Shown in pieces: positions 6,293 through 19,851 of a stretch of 19,851 nt of DNA. Position numbers and translations under genes: made by a program. The stretch is from NCBI GenBank assembly GCA_900319885.1, contig ONQH01000022.1:1-19851 (forward strand), given 5' to 3'. Source of the stretch: Candidatus Avelusimicrobium ruminicola (GTDB lineage: Bacteria; Elusimicrobiota; Elusimicrobia; Elusimicrobiales; Elusimicrobiaceae). Under the pieces are notes generated by a model. It was given only the letters and a program-made list of their open reading frames with translations. It made no database searches and was not told the origin of the DNA. Every line of letters begins with the position of its first letter. Within the stretch, counting starts at the first letter, position 1.

Positions 6293-6811
6293 CTAGTCAC
6301 CTAGCCGATAATACGAAAACCACTGCTCCCCCACATAAGTACCCCCTGCGTTTTGGCATACTCGCTTGGAAAGATTATCCTCCACATTGGCAAAACAATA
6401 CGCCTTCCCTTGCTGAAAGGTAACATTCCCAATAACTGTATCACGGAAAAACTTAACGTACATAATTTTGTCATTTCCGCCTTCCGCGCTACTCAAATTA
6501 TTCGTTATGCCAAACTGTTCATTTCCACATTCATAATAGTTGAAAGTACCGTCTCCGCCATCTATTTTTTCTTCACAATTTGAAGATGGTAGCGAGATAG
6601 CGAACTCTAATTCATTTACGTGCCTTGCATAGTGCCCGTGTTCCATATAATAGAACTGCTCGGCCTGATACAGAGCATCCACGATAGGCATATATTTTGC
6701 AAAAGTAGCTTTGCGCACCGCTTGCTGATACTGCGGCAAGGCAATAGCCGCCAAAATACCAATAATAAGCACCACTACCAGTAGTTCGATAAGCGTAAAT
6801 CCCCGATTCAT
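6293..6811 (-). CDS. Type IV pilin-like protein (pseudopilin)
   Basis: A 172-residue prepilin. The leader MNRG is cut before Phe by prepilin peptidase, giving mature FTLIELLVVV with Glu5, and the hydrophobic helix continues to about residue 24 (LAAIALPQYQQ). The rest is a globular head with a glycine-rich insertion and several cysteines (the SNCEEK and YYECGN segments, and Cys residues in YCFANV and RVCQNAGG) that could form disulfides. It would be assembled into a type IV pilus or type II secretion pseudopilus. No assembly ATPase, platform protein or peptidase is nearby. The start at 6811 is chosen for the short leader and a GGGGGAG ribosome binding site just upstream; the in-frame ATG at 6841 would give an unusually long leader. 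Confidence 0.92.
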   Translation of the reverse strand: MNRGFTLIELLVVVLIIGILAAIALPQYQQAVRKATFAKYMPIVDALYQAEQFYYMEHGHYARHVNELEFAISLPSSNCEEKIDGGDGTFNYYECGNEQFGITNNLSSAEGGNDKIMYVKFFRDTVIGNVTFQQGKAYCFANVEDNLSKRVCQNAGGTYVGEQWFSYYRLGD

Positions 6812-6855
6812 AACTCCCCCTGCTTCTTCACAAACGTTCAAACCCGATTACTATA

Positions 6856-12007: not shown

Positions 12008-12469
12008 TTAACGTACCGTTTTAATACAAATTTCACGTCCGTCGGCCAGGGTTTGGCGGTCTTGGTTGGACGGGTCGGGTATTTCTTCGCCGTCTACGGC
12101 AAACACGTATTTGTATTCGCCCCCGGCTATTGCAACCGACGTTTCAAAATAGCCCTTCTTATACGGGGTAAGCACCAGCGGGTCTTTGCCCCAGCGGTTA
12201 AAATCGGCGCGCAGTTCCACTTGCTTGGCCCCGGGCGCGGTAATAAAAAACTTGCGGTATTTGACCTCGGTATCGTACGAAACTGCCGGTGGGGTAACAC
12301 GCGCTTGCATATCTTCTTTGTTAAGCGGAGCGACCGCGCGGGCGCCCTCAATCGTGCCGGAAGCAAAGGTGTAAAAATCTTCCACTTGCGTAAAAAACCA
12401 CACCAATCCCCCAATAAAGAGCACCAAAAAAAAGCCAAAGAAATTGCGAGGCAGATTAGTTGTTTTCAT
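12008..12469 (-). CDS. Membrane-anchored protein with a glycogen-binding (CBM48/AMPK-type) module
   Basis: A 153-residue protein. Residues 9-27 form one membrane helix, 28-70 a linker, and 72-150 an immunoglobulin-like carbohydrate-binding module. The module carries the typical KQVELRADFNRW (82-93), an aromatic/lysine strand LTPYKKGYFE, the YKYVFAVDGEE segment (119-129) and DPSN (132-135). Such modules bind alpha-glucans in AMP-activated kinases and branching enzymes, or serve as protein-protein modules. No enzyme domain is attached. The start overlaps the end of the radical SAM gene by 14 bases and has a GGAG site 8 bases upstream. It sits in an operon with tsaE, tsaB and rimI, which does not explain a glycan-binding role. 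Confidence 0.82.
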   Translation of the reverse strand: MKTTNLPRNFFGFFLVLFIGGLVWFFTQVEDFYTFASGTIEGARAVAPLNKEDMQARVTPPAVSYDTEVKYRKFFITAPGAKQVELRADFNRWGKDPLVLTPYKKGYFETSVAIAGGEYKYVFAVDGEEIPDPSNQDRQTLADGREICIKTVR

Positions 12470-13106
12470 CTAAAAAACTCCGGGCGTAGAAAGTGGCCCC
12501 GTACTTTTGGGCCAACGCGGCCAGGGCGGGCAAATCGGCCCCGGTGTTTTCCACGCAACTTAAAATTACTTTTTCAAACCCGGCTTGCACGCACTCTTTG
12601 AGAAACAAAAGCACGTCGGGGTAAGCGTCTTGATATTCCGGTTCCGGGCGGACCAGTTTCAGCCATTTTTCCTCACTTTCTGCGTTGACGCTGACGTTGA
12701 CAATATCCACCACGCGGCGCAACTGCGCCACGATAGAACGGTGGTTGATGCGGCTGCCCAACCCGTTGGTATTGAGGCGAATTTTGAACGGCGGAAATTT
12801 GGCTTGCGCTTGCCAGCCTTTGAGCGTTTGGGCAATATAGAGCAGCGCATCCAACCGCAGAGTCGGTTCGCCATAGCCGCAAAAAACAACTTCCTCAAAC
12901 GGGGCCCGGGCTAGTTCTTCTTCCAGCGTACGCAGAACATCTTGTGCGCTGGGCTCGTGACCGGCTAAATTCAAATTGTTCCCGTGAAAGTCCATTTTCC
13001 ACTTGGTCTTAATGCAAAACACGCACAAGTTGGGGCAACGGTTGGTTAAATTGATATAAACCCCGTTGTGGAAACGATACACGGTTTTGGGTTGCGTAGT
13101 AGTCAT
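12456..13106 (-). CDS. Radical SAM protein (TatD-associated type)
   Basis: A 216-residue radical S-adenosylmethionine protein. It has the cluster-binding triad C-x3-C-x2-C at Cys24, Cys28 and Cys31 (RCPNLCVFC) and the SAM-binding GYGEPT at 77-82, followed by a partial TIM barrel (IRLNTNG, VNVSVNAES). Short size and motif spacing resemble the radical SAM proteins often encoded next to tatD; the substrate is unknown. No tatD is in the window. The start at 13106 is chosen because the homologous region begins at MTTTQPKTVYRF, and an extended -10 box lies exactly six bases upstream. The longer frame to 13142 would begin inside the promoter. It leads the six-gene minus-strand operon. Confidence 0.88.
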   Translation of the reverse strand: MTTTQPKTVYRFHNGVYINLTNRCPNLCVFCIKTKWKMDFHGNNLNLAGHEPSAQDVLRTLEEELARAPFEEVVFCGYGEPTLRLDALLYIAQTLKGWQAQAKFPPFKIRLNTNGLGSRINHRSIVAQLRRVVDIVNVSVNAESEEKWLKLVRPEPEYQDAYPDVLLFLKECVQAGFEKVILSCVENTGADLPALAALAQKYGATFYARSFLDENN

Positions 13107-13112
13107 ATTTGT

Positions 13113-13121
13113 ATTATAGCA
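13113..13121 (-). promoter_or_regulatory. Extended -10 promoter, leaderless start of the radical SAM operon
   Basis: On the minus strand TGC-TATAAT, a perfect -10 consensus, is followed by ACAAAT and the ATG at 13106. It is the best of the four examples in the window. The -35 position shows no good match, as expected for an extended -10 promoter. Confidence 0.7.
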
Positions 13122-13146
13122 ATTTCCCCGGATTACGTACACGCGG

Positions 13147-13252: not shown

Positions 13253-14548
13253 ATGCGATACACTCAAAAAATTGCTCTTATTTTTTTAAGTGCCTGTTTG
13301 CTTGCCACGCAGGCGCAAGCCGGTTTGAAGATAAAACGCCCGGTAAAAAAAGCGGCCCCGGTGGCTACAGTTTCCCGGCGCGCCGGCTTGCCCAAACGAT
13401 TGGACTTAAGCGGCAAACGCCGCAAACAAATTTTAGAAACCCGCGTAGCACGTACCTTCCAACAGGCTATGGACGCTTACGCCCGCGCCAGCAATAATAA
13501 TGTATTGTGGGAAGCCATCCCGCCCCAATCCAACCGGGTAGTTAAATTGTTCCCGTTAAAACCGGCGCACGTCTATCCGGACAAGCCTTTCCTGCTTCAC
13601 CCGGTACGCGGCCCGCAACTCACCGAAGCGTATATTTTAGCGCAAAACAACCGTTTGTTTCTACAGCACCTACGCCGGATGGAAACCTTTTGGCCCCGCT
13701 TTGACGAGGCGATCCCGCGTTTTTATGAGGAGGCCCGCGCGCTGGTCCAGCCGGAAAATCCGCTGCAATATGCCGTCAGCCATATTCCCGCACAGGCTAA
13801 AAATATTTTTGTGGGCGAAATCCACGGGTACCCGGAACTTTCCGAATTTGTGAGCGATTTTCTTCCGCTTTTACGTCAACGCCACCCCAATACGCCAATC
13901 TTTTTGTTTACGGAATTTCTTTCAGATCCGGCCAGCCAAGGCGGCCACGTACTGACAAAGGCCCTGTCGGGCGACCCGTTCAAATATTATCAGCGCGTAT
14001 GGGACGCGGCCGAAGAAGAAGGCATCCGCGTCGTGGGTTTAGAACCGAAATTTGCCGATGCCAACTACTTTATCAAAGTACCGCACTTTTACAAAGAAAA
14101 ATCTATCTCTATCTGGAGCACGCTGGAAGGCATGCATATACGTAACGAGCATTGGTGGAAAATCTTGCAACAGTACCGCGCCCAAAACCCCGAGGCAATT
14201 TTTGTGGTTTACACCGGCAGCGCACACAGTCTGTATACCTATGAGTTTTCACTGGCGGCCCGCGCGCCCAAAGGCAGTGCCTTTATGCTGGAACTGGTGC
14301 CCACCAAGCAATTACGCCCGCAGGAACGCGTGTTTAATACCAACTATGCTGACAATTTGGAACGGACCGACCCACTACTTTCCTTCCCCCAGCAGGTATT
14401 GCATTGGAAATCCGGCGATTTGGCCCCCCTTTCCGGCTTTGATATGCGTATTAAAGTGCCGGTCAATTTAGAGTACAAGAAAATGGAAATAGAACAACAA
14501 ATTCTGATACACGATCAAATGGATAAGCTAAATACATTGTTTTTTTAA
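13253..14548 (+). CDS. Secreted GxxH-type (TIKI/TraB/ChaN superfamily) protein, paralog 1
   Basis: First of four tandem paralogs. The 431-residue product has a type I signal peptide (MRYTQKIALIF... ending TQAQA, cut before GLKIKRP), a basic segment, and an ~280-residue domain. In that domain GEIH (188-191), Glu221 in LFTEFL and GSAH (322-325) in VVYTGSAHSLY form the GxxH...E...GxxH pattern of the TIKI/TraB/ChaN-like fold. It also has the array's own motifs: YPDKPFL, NNRLF, LEGMHIRNE, KYRAQ-like QQYRAQNPEAIFVVY, and the C-terminal LSGFDMRIK. In that superfamily members bind haem (ChaN), are proteases (TIKI) or esterases (EreA), so function is open. The start at 13253 is chosen for the signal peptide; an AGAGGG site lies 12 bases upstream, rather far. 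Confidence 0.75.
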   Translation: MRYTQKIALIFLSACLLATQAQAGLKIKRPVKKAAPVATVSRRAGLPKRLDLSGKRRKQILETRVARTFQQAMDAYARASNNNVLWEAIPPQSNRVVKLFPLKPAHVYPDKPFLLHPVRGPQLTEAYILAQNNRLFLQHLRRMETFWPRFDEAIPRFYEEARALVQPENPLQYAVSHIPAQAKNIFVGEIHGYPELSEFVSDFLPLLRQRHPNTPIFLFTEFLSDPASQGGHVLTKALSGDPFKYYQRVWDAAEEEGIRVVGLEPKFADANYFIKVPHFYKEKSISIWSTLEGMHIRNEHWWKILQQYRAQNPEAIFVVYTGSAHSLYTYEFSLAARAPKGSAFMLELVPTKQLRPQERVFNTNYADNLERTDPLLSFPQQVLHWKSGDLAPLSGFDMRIKVPVNLEYKKMEIEQQILIHDQMDKLNTLFF

Positions 14549-14572
14549 CCTTACCATAAAATGGAGACATAT

Positions 14573-15841
14573 ATGATAAAACGAACCTGGTTATGGGTAG
14601 TAATTTTAAGTATATTGCTGTTTCCCTTCCAAGCGCAAGCTGGAGTAAAAAGCCCTAAACGCTCCCCCAAACGCCCCCCCAAAGCCGTCACCGCCCGGCG
14701 CGCTTTTACGCACGACATGCGCAAAGGGAATTATACCCTACAGCGTCAAAGGGAAATCTCCTCCTTGTTGAGCCGGCGCGCCATTCTCTCCTTTGATCGC
14801 GCCAGCCAAGCCCACTTGGATTTGAGTCTCCCCCTTCGCTCCCATACTGGCATGCCTGCTGCCCGCATGAAAAGTTTTGAGAATACACACTGGCAGAAAA
14901 TTTACCCGGATAAGCCGTTTTTAACTACGAGCCAACAAGTAGGCAATTACATGATTTCTCACAATAACCGCTTGCTCGTCCAAGAAACAGCACGTATGAA
15001 ACAACTTTCCGTGGATCTGACCGCGCGTTTGCCGCAGTTGGAAGAAGCCATTGCCAAAAGCCCGCGCCCGGAAAACCCGCTCACGTGGCTGTTGGAGAAC
15101 ATCCCCGACCAAACCAGTATGTTATTTCTGGGTGAAGTACATGACGTGCCGGAAATTCATGAAGCCATTGTCACGTTGTTAGCGCAATTACGCGAGAAAA
15201 ATCCCAACCGCAAAATTGTATTGTTTACGGAGTTCTTGCCCGAGGAACTTCACTATGCCGCCAACGCGGCCACCGCCACGCCGCTGGGAATGCTCCAGAT
15301 ATGGAAATCTGCTCTACGCCGCGATATAGAAGTAATCGGCTTAGAGCCAGAATTTGTAACAGGGGACTTAAGCAAACAACAGGTACAGAATACCGAAGGC
15401 ACCAAACTGGTAACATTAAACCAGTGGGCCAATTTGGAGGGGGTCCGCCTGCGCAACGAAGCCTGGGTACGCACCCTGGAAAAGTACCGTGCGCAAGAAC
15501 CGGAAGCCTTGTTTGTAGTATATAGCGGCATGGGGCACTGCGGGTATAATCAGCCGTTTACGCTCTCGCAAGCGTTTGAGCACGAAAAGCCCTACGTCGT
15601 TTCTTTTGTTCCGTCCCATAAAATAAGAACCCGGAAAATAGATGCCGAAGAGGGAAACCGCCACGTAGTTGCCAACTATCATGATATGTTAGAGCAAATG
15701 CTGGTAGAAAATCTCCCGCAGCCGCTCATCCACCTGCCTGACCCCGAACTGAGCCGCTTGGCCGGGTTTGATGTGCGCCTGAAATTAGAAGTTGATAAAG
15801 AAGGACTTATTTTTGACTTGTTAATGGATGAAATGTTTAAG
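14573..15841 (+). CDS. Secreted GxxH-type protein, paralog 2
   Basis: Second of the array, about 423 residues, 24 bases after paralog 1 and so probably cotranscribed. Signal peptide MIKRTWLWVVILSILLFPFQAQA, then a very basic proline-rich segment (KSPKRSPKRPPK). Core motifs are GEVH (187-190), Glu220 in LFTEFL and GMGH (319-322). It shares with paralog 4 the block LEGVRLRNEAWVRTLEKYRA almost unchanged, although the codons differ at many third positions, meaning the protein sequence is kept by selection. The DKPFL, NNRLL and C-terminal LAGFDVRLK motifs are present. The start follows GGAG at 14563-14566; the earlier ATG at 14561 overlaps that site. The stop codon follows at 15842-15844. Confidence 0.78.
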
Positions 15842-15851
15842 TAAAAACGAT

Positions 15852-17129
15852 ATGAACCGATGGTGCCTACTACTGATTAGTTTGTGTATACTGGCCGGCC
15901 CCGTCCGCGCGCAGGTAGCAATTGCTACTGCCAAGGAACTGTCCCTCCTTTCGCGCGGGGTGGCCCAATCGGTACGCAAGGGCAATCCGCTCTATATCCC
16001 CGGCAAAGCACGCGTAGGCCGCACGGGGTTGTATTCGTTTCAAGTAACCCGTGTACTTGAGCGCCGCGCCGCCCACGCCCGCAAACACGCTGTAAGGATA
16101 CGCCAGGGATTCCCCTTGGGGAAAACCACCATCCACGGTTCGCAACCCGTTTCCAATTTCAAATGGGGCCTTTCCGGCGATTTGCCCCTTTCACGCGCGC
16201 TGGAACATTACACCCCCCGGCAAAAAGCCTTATATCTTTCCGCCCTGGAAAACCGCATTTTCTTGAAAGAGGCCTACCGCCTGCGTGACCAAGTTTGGAC
16301 CCCTCTGGCAGAAAATTTACCCCGTTTACGTCAAGCCGCCGCCCAATCCCCGCAACCGGCGGACCCGATCGCGTTTGTCATCCAACAACTTCCTTCGCAA
16401 ATAAATACCCTGGCTATTGGGGAGGTACATTGTTTTGTCCCCGTGCGTAGCGTCATGGCCCAACTGCTCACGCAACTACGCCAAGCCCGCCCCACGCAAG
16501 AAATTTTTCTCTTTACCGAAGCGTTGGAACAAGAGCAAGCGCATTTCCACCCGCAAGGCAAATATAGTGTGCTACCTAAGGAAGAACGCTCCGGACTAGA
16601 CCAAGTATGGCGCGCCGCGCGGGATAATCATATCCCGGTTATTGGGTTGGAACCCCAAGAAGTATTGCAAGATGCCCAACTGTCGCTCTATGCCCGCTTT
16701 GAACATGCGGACCGGGCCACGCACGTAATCACCCCGTATTATGCTTCGTTGACCGGGATGAAATGGCGCAACAAACAATTTGCCCAAACCATCCAAAAAT
16801 ACCGTGCCCAACACCCCGACGCGCTGTTTGTCATCCACACCGGAGGGATGCATGTGGAATATACGGCCCCTTTTTCGCTGACTGCCCAAATGAACCCGGC
16901 CAAAACCTTTGTACTGCGCATTCTCCCCACCGAAAAACAAGTGCGTGCGGAATTTCCCGAGGAGTCTTTACCAAACATCTATTTTATGTGGGATCCGCTG
17001 GGCAGCGAACTCAACGGAGCGGCCTTGTTTAACCAACCGTTCTTGTATTGGCAGGACCCGCAACTGGCCCGTATGACCGGCGTAGATGCCTACTTGCAAG
17101 CCGAGGAGCGTTTTTGGCAAAAACCATAA
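15852..17129 (+). CDS. Secreted GxxH-type protein, paralog 3 (most diverged)
   Basis: Third of the array, 425 residues, beginning eight bases after the previous stop. Signal peptide MNRWCLLLISLCILAGPVRA, cut before QVAIATAK. It keeps GEVH (190-193), Glu223 in LFTEAL and GGMH (331-334), so the putative active or ligand site is intact. It lacks the DKPFL and NNRLF motifs in their usual form, and the C-terminal motif is altered to MTGVDAYLQ. No ribosome binding site is visible before the chosen ATG, so expression may depend on coupling to paralog 2. An ATG at 15828 would overlap paralog 2 and put eight polar residues before the signal peptide. Confidence 0.72.
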   Translation: MNRWCLLLISLCILAGPVRAQVAIATAKELSLLSRGVAQSVRKGNPLYIPGKARVGRTGLYSFQVTRVLERRAAHARKHAVRIRQGFPLGKTTIHGSQPVSNFKWGLSGDLPLSRALEHYTPRQKALYLSALENRIFLKEAYRLRDQVWTPLAENLPRLRQAAAQSPQPADPIAFVIQQLPSQINTLAIGEVHCFVPVRSVMAQLLTQLRQARPTQEIFLFTEALEQEQAHFHPQGKYSVLPKEERSGLDQVWRAARDNHIPVIGLEPQEVLQDAQLSLYARFEHADRATHVITPYYASLTGMKWRNKQFAQTIQKYRAQHPDALFVIHTGGMHVEYTAPFSLTAQMNPAKTFVLRILPTEKQVRAEFPEESLPNIYFMWDPLGSELNGAALFNQPFLYWQDPQLARMTGVDAYLQAEERFWQKP

Positions 17130-17137
17130 ACCGGAGT

Positions 17138-17165
17138 GGGCCTTTTTTCTTGAAAAAATAGGCCT
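17138..17165. other. T/A-rich inverted repeat between paralogs 3 and 4
   Basis: GGGCC-TTTTTT pairs with AAAAAA-(TA)-GGCCT around a four-base CTTG loop, nine bases after the paralog 3 stop. The T run is in the stem, not after it, and only TTTAG follows, so termination is uncertain. Together with the 90-bp gap and a good ribosome binding site before paralog 4, it suggests that paralog 4 may have its own expression control. Confidence 0.4.
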
Positions 17166-17219
17166 TTAGTCCCTGGGAAATACAAGCGGGACGTATTAAA
17201 GTATAAGTAGGAGCAAAGT

Positions 17220-18470
17220 ATGTTACGAAAAAAAATTTTACCGCTCATCCTGGTAAGTTTCTGTTTGCTGGCACTGCCGGCACAAGCCGCGTGGAAACTT
17301 CCGCTTAAATCACGCAAGGCTCCTGCCGCCAGACACTTGCCCAAGTCTGCCATGCGCCACCCTAATTTCATCCAGCGCGAACAAATTTCCAACCTATTAC
17401 ACCGGCGTGCCCGTAAGACCTACCAACAGGCCGTAAAACTCCAGCAGGAACTTCCCCCTTCGCGCGGGCTTACCATTGGCGAGCCGGTCCGCGCTATCCG
17501 CCGTCCCAATGATATGCCGACCGAACGCGTGTATGCCGATAAACCGTTTTTGACCTCGCGCCACCAAACCGCCGATTATATGGTGGCCCAAAGTAACCGT
17601 TTATTTATCCGCGAAGTGGCCCGCATGCGCCAATTATGGAACGAGTTAGATAAACATTTAGACGAATTAAAACAAGCCGCCGCCAACACCCCCCAACCGG
17701 CGGACCCGATCGCGTGGTTGGCCCGTCAAATTCCCGCGGATACCAGCATCCTCTTTGTGGGCGAAATGCACGGCTACGGAGAAATTCACGAAGCCACCGC
17801 ACAACTTTTAGGGTTACTGCGCCAACGTCATCCTACCCGCCGCATTGTGCTGCTTACCGAATTTTTAACGGAAGATTTCCATTATACCGCAGACGTTCCC
17901 ACGGATGCGCTACACCTGCCCGACTTTGAAGGCGTATGGCAAGAAGCACTGAGTCAACATATAGAAGTAATCGGTTTAGAACCTATGCACGTTATGAACG
18001 ATACGTGTGAAATGAAATACCGCAGCCGCGACAACGGCAAAATGAAAACCGCCCCCCAATGGGCCCATTTAGAAGGGGTCCGCTTGCGTAACGAGGCTTG
18101 GGTACGCACGTTGGAAAAGTACCGCGCACAAGACCCCGAGGCGTTATTTGTGGTCTACTCCGGCGCGGCGCACAGTATGTATAATTTCCCGTTTACACTT
18201 TCCACGGCCCTTACTAAAGAAGTTCCCTTTGTGGCCACATTTTACCCCGAAACGGTGTTTTACCTGGCCACTAATAACTGGCTGATTTCTTCGCTGGAAA
18301 ATGCGTTTATCCCGTTGGAAGAGCCCCTGGAAAGGATGACCCACCCGGACGCTTTTCCGCAACAAACAATTCACTTCCAAGACCCGCACCTAGCCAAACT
18401 GGCCGGATTTAACGTGCGCGTAAAATTGCCGATTAGTACCCAGCGTTATTACAGGGATCACGGGTTTTAG
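17220..18470 (+). CDS. Secreted GxxH-type protein, paralog 4
   Basis: Last of the array, 416 residues. Signal peptide MLRKKILPLILVSFCLLALPAQA, cut before AWKLPLK. Core motifs are GEMH (181-184), Glu214 in LLTEFL and GAAH (315-318); the array motifs YADKPFL, SNRLF, LEGVRLRNE, KYRAQDPEALFVVYSG and LAGFNVRVK are all present. Closest overall to paralog 2, but it shares with paralog 3 a 22-bp stretch of identical DNA (17694-17715 and 16353-16374), hinting at local recombination. The start has an AGGAG site at a normal distance, better than those of paralogs 1 and 3. No terminator is seen in the 58 bases before the tRNA. Confidence 0.77.
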   Translation: MLRKKILPLILVSFCLLALPAQAAWKLPLKSRKAPAARHLPKSAMRHPNFIQREQISNLLHRRARKTYQQAVKLQQELPPSRGLTIGEPVRAIRRPNDMPTERVYADKPFLTSRHQTADYMVAQSNRLFIREVARMRQLWNELDKHLDELKQAAANTPQPADPIAWLARQIPADTSILFVGEMHGYGEIHEATAQLLGLLRQRHPTRRIVLLTEFLTEDFHYTADVPTDALHLPDFEGVWQEALSQHIEVIGLEPMHVMNDTCEMKYRSRDNGKMKTAPQWAHLEGVRLRNEAWVRTLEKYRAQDPEALFVVYSGAAHSMYNFPFTLSTALTKEVPFVATFYPETVFYLATNNWLISSLENAFIPLEEPLERMTHPDAFPQQTIHFQDPHLAKLAGFNVRVKLPISTQRYYRDHGF

Positions 18471-18528: not shown

Positions 18529-18615
18529 GGAAGGGTGGCCGAGTGGTTTAAGGCGTCAGTCTTGAAAACTGATGTAGGGGCAACTCTACCGAGGGTTCGA
18601 ATCCCTCCCCTTCCG
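18529..18615 (+). tRNA. tRNA-Ser (anticodon UGA)
   Basis: An 87-base class II tRNA. The acceptor stem GGAAGGG (18529-18535) pairs with CCCTTCC (18608-18614), followed by discriminator G. The anticodon stem TCAGT/ACTGA encloses CTTGAAA with anticodon TGA at 18563-18565. A long variable arm (GTAG..CTAC) marks it as serine, and the T arm is GAGGG-TTCGAAT-CCCTC. CCA is not encoded. It reads UCA and, by wobble, other UCN codons. Confidence 0.97.
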
Positions 18616-18617
18616 TA
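18598..18617 (+). repeat. attL-like 3' end of tRNA-Ser
   Basis: CGAATCCCTCCCCTTCCGTA covers the T-arm/acceptor end of the tRNA plus two bases beyond. It recurs exactly at 18799-18818, in the same orientation and 201 bases away, as a pair of attachment sites around an inserted element would. Confidence 0.7.
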
Positions 18618-18627
18618 TAATTAAAAC

Positions 18628-18649
18628 AGCACCCTTGCGGTGCTTTTTT
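18628..18649 (+). terminator. Terminator directly after tRNA-Ser
   Basis: AGCACC (18628-18633) pairs with GGTGCT (18639-18644) around CTTGC and is followed by a T run to 18649. The T run is also the left edge of the structured direct repeat. Confidence 0.88.
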
Positions 18650-18798
18650 AATTATATGATAGACATGGAGCAACACCAACTGCTTGGTGTTGCGTAGGGA
18701 TGAGAAAGCCGGAGCCTTATGCGAGTTTGAACGCAGTGAAAGGCGAGCATGGCGAGGCGGGGTCGCGAGCGCCGCACGTCAGTAAGGCGACTTGTGAC
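18642..18798 (+). repeat. Structured direct repeat, copy A
   Basis: 18642-18762 matches 19731-19851 (exact from about 18665, with a few changes in the A/T-rich left edge). Foldable parts: CAACACCAA-CTGC-TTGGTGTTG (18671-18692, perfect 9-bp stem); GCCTT/AAGGC (18714-18744) enclosing TGCG/CGCA; and GTCGC/GCGAC (18762-18791). No reading frame of note. It lies between the two tRNA-end repeats. It may be a small mobile element, an island remnant or a structured RNA. Confidence 0.75.
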
Positions 18799-18818
18799 CG
18801 AATCCCTCCCCTTCCGTA
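18799..18818 (+). repeat. attR-like duplicate of the tRNA-Ser 3' end
   Basis: Exact copy of 18598-18617 with no tRNA body in front of it. It is followed 23 bases later by a second terminator hairpin, which may have been the original tRNA terminator before insertion. Confidence 0.7.
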
Positions 18819-18841
18819 TTTTAGTTTTTGATTATTAGCAT

Positions 18842-19730: not shown

Positions 19731-19851
19731 GCTTTTTTAACTATATACTAAGTATGGAGCAACACCAACTGCTTGGTGTTGCGTAGGGATGAGAAAGCCG
19801 GAGCCTTATGCGAGTTTGAACGCAGTGAAAGGCGAGCATGGCGAGGCGGGG
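19731..19851 (+). repeat. Structured direct repeat, copy B (cut by window end)
   Basis: Matches copy A (18642-18762) at a constant offset of 1089 bases; the perfect 9-bp hairpin CAACACCAA/TTGGTGTTG is present. Unlike copy A, no tRNA lies just upstream. Whether its right end also carries a tRNA-end duplicate is beyond the window. Confidence 0.85.

Follow-up and report, generated by a model that had tools for sequence, protein, structure and literature searches.

A tandem array of four exported proteins, probably TIKI/Ere-type hydrolases, in Candidatus Avelusimicrobium ruminicola

In Candidatus Avelusimicrobium ruminicola (Elusimicrobiota; GCA_900319885.1), contig ONQH01000022.1, analysed over 19,851 nucleotides (hereafter the window), carries four consecutive open reading frames in tandem on the forward strand (positions 13253-18470), separated by gaps of 24, 7 and 90 bp. 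We suggest that the four genes code for exported hydrolases belonging to the TIKI/Ere superfamily, with a probability of about 0.65. What is observed is the gene array itself, the export-type N-termini, the predicted fold and a near-absolute conservation of Glu-x-His, Glu, Arg and His residues. The superfamily includes macrolide esterases, Wnt proteases and Ras proteases, and the array proteins form a new exported subfamily of it that is probably catalytic. Extracytoplasmic peptides or proteins are ranked as the likeliest substrates, followed by esters. The family adds to the superfamily a large, apparently catalytic branch, found mainly in a single host-associated lineage whose genomes are small.

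The original prediction, made from the letters of this DNA, had described four consecutive genes for exported proteins of 416 to 431 amino acids (aa), and this is borne out: the genes share a strand and all four products have a signal-peptide-like start (Table 1). Paralogs 2-4 are 29-35% identical to paralog 1, and the four are the only matches to the family in their own genome (1.2 Mb, 176 contigs, 83% complete). Both GxxH motifs, the central Glu and the motif YRAQ.P.A.FV occur in all four proteins as described. Other motifs proposed as common to the array turned out to be partial, mostly due to paralog 3, which has no DKPFL, shows FTEAL in place of (F/L)TEFL and LTGMKWRNK in place of LEGxxxRNE, and has GVDAYLQ rather than GF.VR.K close to its C-terminus; the last motif is also altered in paralog 1 (GFDMRIK), and NNRLF is exact in paralog 1 only (ENRIF in paralog 3). 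The ordered pattern GE.H - [TS]E - RN - G..H at the array spacings, devised post hoc from sequences already seen, is found in 4/4 real and 0/20,000 letter-shuffled sequences. A lipobox-like LSAC in its signal sequence makes it possible that paralog 1 is a lipoprotein. The basic stretch announced behind the signal peptide is real, with net charges of +11, +10, +6 and +9 at residues 24-63 of paralogs 1-4, and it is frequent across the family (at least +5 in 89/154 members vs 6.7% of control windows). This linker, modelled with low confidence, may keep the protein near acidic surface polymers. Promoter and terminator scans gave the shuffled expectation (5 vs 5.3 and 9 vs 9.6, respectively), so we make no operon claim on these signals.

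The profile searches proposed with the prediction retrieved PF04187 (ChaN-like) as the sole plausible match, at 17.2, 26.1, 21.3 and 22.2 bits for paralogs 1-4, all below the Pfam cut-off of 27.7 bits; the other Pfam matches were at chance level. In a six-frame scan of the genome paralog 2 scored 29.2, a sum that includes neighbouring pieces, and PF04187 matched 25 of the 32 members of a 32-row family alignment at E up to 1. The TraB/PrgY profile PF01963 did not match the four proteins and gave a weak match (E 0.082) in one relative. The erythromycin esterase (Ere) profile, PF05139, was not among their Pfam matches at E up to 10, a search in which the HMMER filters drop weak ones. No match was obtained for the array proteins in NCBIfam, nor for one of them in a PDB sequence search, while a PDB search with the family profile returned one chance-level match in the N-terminal part (E 0.71). 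In BFVD the top match (E 4.2e-4) was to a Klebsiella phage Miami protein of 187 aa.

Paralog 4 was modelled from the 32-row alignment with a mean predicted local distance difference test score of 85.0 and a predicted template modelling score of 0.82. The model has the parallel beta-sheet core that marks the TIKI/Ere/ChaN fold and, together with the conserved residues, it supports the earlier assignment to the TIKI/TraB/PrgY/ChaN/EreA superfamily. HopBA1 (15.2), EreC (14.7), ChaN (14.6) and BcR135 (14.5) lead the VIA-align comparison, followed after a gap by RRSP-type chains (9.4-10.0), tied with signal recognition particle (SRP) GTPases from 9.3. Foldseek results were less clear-cut (HopBA1 2.6e-4, ChaN 2.2e-3, SRP GTPase 3.1e-3, EreC 4.3e-3). 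The N-terminal helices before residue 147 lie outside nearly all structural matches. In the model, E182 closes the core strand 177-182 with H184 just after it, E214 is within strand 209-217, R290 lies in the helix spanning 284-304, and H318 comes after strand 309-315.

These positions are the ones that hardly vary. We collected 165 members from 40 array loci and the window, a non-random sample since the loci were hand-picked from profile matches with larger arrays first, and aligned the 154 of 320-560 aa, 11 being excluded by length. Each of the positions equivalent to E182, H184, E214 and H318 is retained in 153/154 members, R290 in all and N291 in 151; the complete set of Glu, His, Glu, Arg and His is present in 152. 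One exception has Asp replacing the first Glu. By this alignment the other (L074:2880-4367) lacks three of the five catalytic residues and is possibly a non-catalytic paralog. The distance between the two His varies from 117 to 167 residues with the residues themselves constant. Column entropy averages 1.3-1.9 bits over the motif strands and 2.3 bits over the Arg helix vs 3.2-3.7 bits for the N-terminal helices and for loops 218-248 and 257-283. As read from the alignment, this is the pattern of a retained active site within a changing frame.

The literature compared comprised parts of PMC6254334, PMC7979712, PMC12946183 and PMC9662315. EreC is described as a hydrolase that works without metal: E47 orients the base H50, a water is held by H50, E78 and H289, and R261 stabilises the transition state (PMC7979712). 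The RRSP text gives E3900, H3902, E3930, R4001 and H4030 as required in this TIKI-family endopeptidase (PMC6254334), that is, E-x-H, Glu, Arg and His at nearly the same spacing as in the array proteins. If EreC is a guide, the Glu that precedes the first His by two residues would fix that His as general base; His184, Glu214 and His318 of paralog 4 would hold a water, and Arg290 would stabilise the oxyanion during attack of this water on the carbonyl of a peptide or ester, no metal being needed. Substrate choice would lie with the variable N-terminal helices and with the loops that follow the second and third core strands, and tandem duplication would therefore yield enzymes with different targets. 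The array proteins are nonetheless distinct from EreC and BcR135: they have an export-type N-terminus, E-x-H where Ere has E-x-x-H, a far shorter stretch from the second Glu to the Arg, a different N-terminal part, an arrangement in arrays and no Ere profile match.

The original prediction was neutral between enzymes and ligand binders, and the evidence favours catalysis over haem binding. As PF04187 was the sole plausible profile match, we first considered ChaN-like proteins that carry haem or metal at the envelope. A relation to ChaN is apparent: a ChaN-type profile from a sister family of the same order (20 loci among the matches listed) aligns in hhalign with the 154-member profile at a probability of 93.2 (E 2.9e-7), with GExH, Glu and GxxH in register, while 20 column-shuffled profiles reach at most 1.7. 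The sister family has ordinary PF04187 proteins of up to 204 bits vs 39.5 for the best in this genus. However, the R290 column, invariant in our family, aligns with Trp in 18/20 of these ChaN-type relatives, and the array proteins differ from ChaN (PF04187; Campylobacter jejuni 2G5G) and these relatives also in their many copies and in their sub-threshold Pfam score. ChaN is associated with a TonB-dependent receptor partner. Such a receptor was found over the cut-off in 0/13 same-genus genomes, including the own genome (83% complete), vs 7/8 in the sister family; four of the 13 show weak matches below it (E 1.8e-5 to 6.8e-4). An expansion to 26 copies would also be odd for a carrier. The aligned profiles, the Trp in place of R290 and the receptor survey make descent from a ChaN-like ancestor likely and a role in haem uptake not likely, and we downgraded the carrier hypothesis to an improbable one on the last two points. 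Slightly less probable still is that the proteins sequester or destroy signal peptides, one paralog per signal, as PrgY/TraB proteins do with pheromones. Export, paralog divergence and membership in the same superfamily agree with such a role, against which stands the PF01963 result given above.

The prediction of a lineage-specific expansion was confirmed by the survey of related genomes that it had suggested. With the 32-row profile, the family is found in 49/66 genomes of the genus (27/36 among good genomes), with 1-26 copies where present and 0 to 26 overall; these counts include some rows with in-frame stops. The 26-copy genome has 1.4 Mb (the four-row profile counts 28 copies there), a size at which keeping so many copies must bring some return. 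Phylum-wide, where at most five candidates were scored per genome, 51/340 genomes match: those 49 of the genus plus two weak cases from the same family. In a contig scan with two short patterns, relatives at 7/7 named loci belong to Elusimicrobiaceae bacterium or uncultured Elusimicrobium sp., from RUG isolates, yak rumen and horse faeces. An IMG/VR scan with the family alignment gave 39 pattern matches and no relative.

The site of the window array, recognised by shared upstream genes, is occupied in five other genomes (G009, G063, G069, G073 and G018) by 5, 2, 1, 1 and 2 members, the second one of G018 being ~6 kb beyond the site. Members cluster by site on the tree (FastTree, support values unused), with 16 site changes vs at least 77 in 200 shuffles; some genomes entered under two locus ids, so locus counts on the tree overstate genomes. 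Copy number would change by birth and death at such recurrent sites. Close pairs are under purifying selection (14 of 17 usable, median dN/dS, the nonsynonymous to synonymous rate ratio, of 0.17, maximum 0.41). A further array site lies beside ribosomal protein/NusG-type genes (L080-L083 and L086), and four of them have a secreted trypsin-like protein next to the array (PF00089 tested in L083 only). The names ribosomal protein and NusG, like TsaB/TsaE/RimI among flanking genes, were assigned by eye.

Another recurrent family site is a podovirus-like capsid cluster with a terminase (PF03237, phrog_2), portal (PF12236, phrog_332), protease, GP7 major capsid protein (PF20911, 382 bits), tail protein and nozzle. 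The portal is found in 62/66 genus genomes (61 over the cut-off) and the capsid protein also in 62/66, once in 59 and twice in 3 (G007, G026 and G080), vs 0/83 other genomes of the order. Each genome contributes a single locus to the 62 portal loci; that of G064 is a 47-residue fragment, and further, mostly weaker portal matches in nine genomes were left out, as were the second capsid genes. Distances follow those of RpoB, with Mantel r of 0.84 for the portal (n = 26), 0.77 for the capsid protein (n = 27), 0.77 for the terminase (n = 24) and 0.59 for the nozzle (n = 16), each with 0/2000 permutations; RpoB was found in 43/66 genomes and the 30 best-scoring among the loci listed were used, leaving 16-27 genomes per test. 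Mean divergence of the capsid protein (0.103) nearly equals that of RpoB (0.100); the values for portal (0.34), terminase (0.28) and nozzle (0.48) are about three- to fivefold larger. Host-restricted phages could also track host distance in this way. The flanks are host-type in the three genomes inspected: MatE, FTCD, pilin and Wzy_C in G065, KsgA in G029, and Wzy_C plus secretin, T2SSE, T2SSF and pilin-like genes in G071 (L177), where the last four lie upstream of the terminase. Relatives of the capsid protein in IMG/VR are 64-66% identical on 4/26 contigs and 34-40% on the rest, and 90 INPHARED records match it, each below 60% identity; INPHARED tblastn with one capsid-cluster family member gave no match.

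Judging from its genes, the cluster (L176-L237) is a candidate for either a gene transfer agent or a phage that has been domesticated. It resembles BhGTA, RcGTA and BaGTA, in the available part of PMC9662315, in being near-universal in the genus, mostly single copy and co-diversified with the host, and differs from them in its podovirus-type genes and in the TIKI-fold arrays between terminase and portal. That part of PMC9662315 does not name Elusimicrobiota, and the portions of open-licence literature covered hold no report of a gene transfer agent in this phylum; nor did titles and abstract openings, mostly of open-licence literature, report this protein family or such a capsid cluster there.

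It is conceivable, if doubtful, that the array proteins are an accessory module of the capsid cluster, preparing the envelope of producer or recipient cells or policing particle entry, with the window array as an outlying copy. Cluster and family are both concentrated in the same genus, and where terminase and portal share a contig, 17/52 loci hold one to eight members between them (22/62 portal loci when cut contigs are counted, 21 adjoining the portal and one the terminase). However, the other 35/52 have a gap of 311-1159 bp and no member, 40/62 portal loci are without members (five of them without a visible terminase), the IMG/VR contigs with capsid relatives have members in 0/26 cases, many of these contigs being incomplete, and the window array and many others sit elsewhere. 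Insertion into a permissive gap would look identical. The capsid contig of the own genome (G000:C122, L235) begins inside the portal, so its terminase side is not visible. Phage cargo as the principal explanation of the window array was dropped because this array is outside the capsid cluster. With a similarly low expectation, in this one genus of gut Elusimicrobiaceae a domesticated podovirus may have become a vertically inherited gene transfer agent with the exported TIKI-fold hydrolases as its companion, the window holding a four-gene satellite array; if true, a diversified set of enzymes acting on the envelope, often with genes in the terminase-portal gap, would choose the cells that release or accept particles. 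The link to a co-diversified capsid cluster offers a concrete place to seek the function of the family, and a candidate gene transfer agent in Elusimicrobiota.

Table 1. Features of the array and its immediate neighbours, in window positions; residue roles are assigned by analogy.
Feature	Position	Strand	Basis
Paralog 1, exported TIKI-fold protein, 431 aa	13253..14548	+	
Paralog 2, 423 aa, highest PF04187 score of the four	14573..15844	+	
Paralog 3, 425 aa, divergent; without DKPFL, TEFL, LEGxxxRNE	15852..17129	+	
Paralog 4, 416 aa, modelled	17220..18470	+	
Signal-peptide-like start, paralog 1; ends AQA, lipobox-like LSAC inside	13253..13321	+	sequence
Signal-peptide-like start, paralog 2; ends AQA	14573..14641	+	sequence
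Signal-peptide-like start, paralog 3; ends VRA	15852..15911	+	sequence
Signal-peptide-like start, paralog 4; ends AQA	17220..17288	+	sequence
GEIH, paralog 1 (Glu and putative base His)	13814..13825	+	
GEVH, paralog 2	15131..15142	+	
GEVH, paralog 3	16419..16430	+	
GEMH, paralog 4 (E182, H184)	17760..17771	+	
TE, paralog 4 (E214, putative water-binding Glu)	17856..17861	+	
Arg290, paralog 4 (putative oxyanion Arg; 154/154 members)	18087..18089	+	
Second GxxH, paralog 1 (GSAH)	14216..14227	+	
Second GxxH, paralog 2 (GMGH)	15527..15538	+	
Second GxxH, paralog 3 (GGMH)	16842..16853	+	
Second GxxH, paralog 4 (GAAH, H318)	18162..18173	+	
Radical SAM gene (PF04055); its relatives lie beside this site in four further loci	12456..13142	-	
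tRNA-Ser(TGA), 58 bp after the array	18529..18615	+	

Around the array, about 20 bases of the 3' end of the tRNA-Ser(TGA) gene recur near 18799-18819 (18529-18820 with the gene), which may mark an old integration event. A repeat at 18642-18812 belongs to a dispersed family: its second copy in the window (19731-19851) is 95% identical, and other contigs of this genome hold three more (80-83%). Farther upstream, a type IV pilin-like gene recognised by eye (6293-6841) has relatives in 6/41 sources (11 members, window included).

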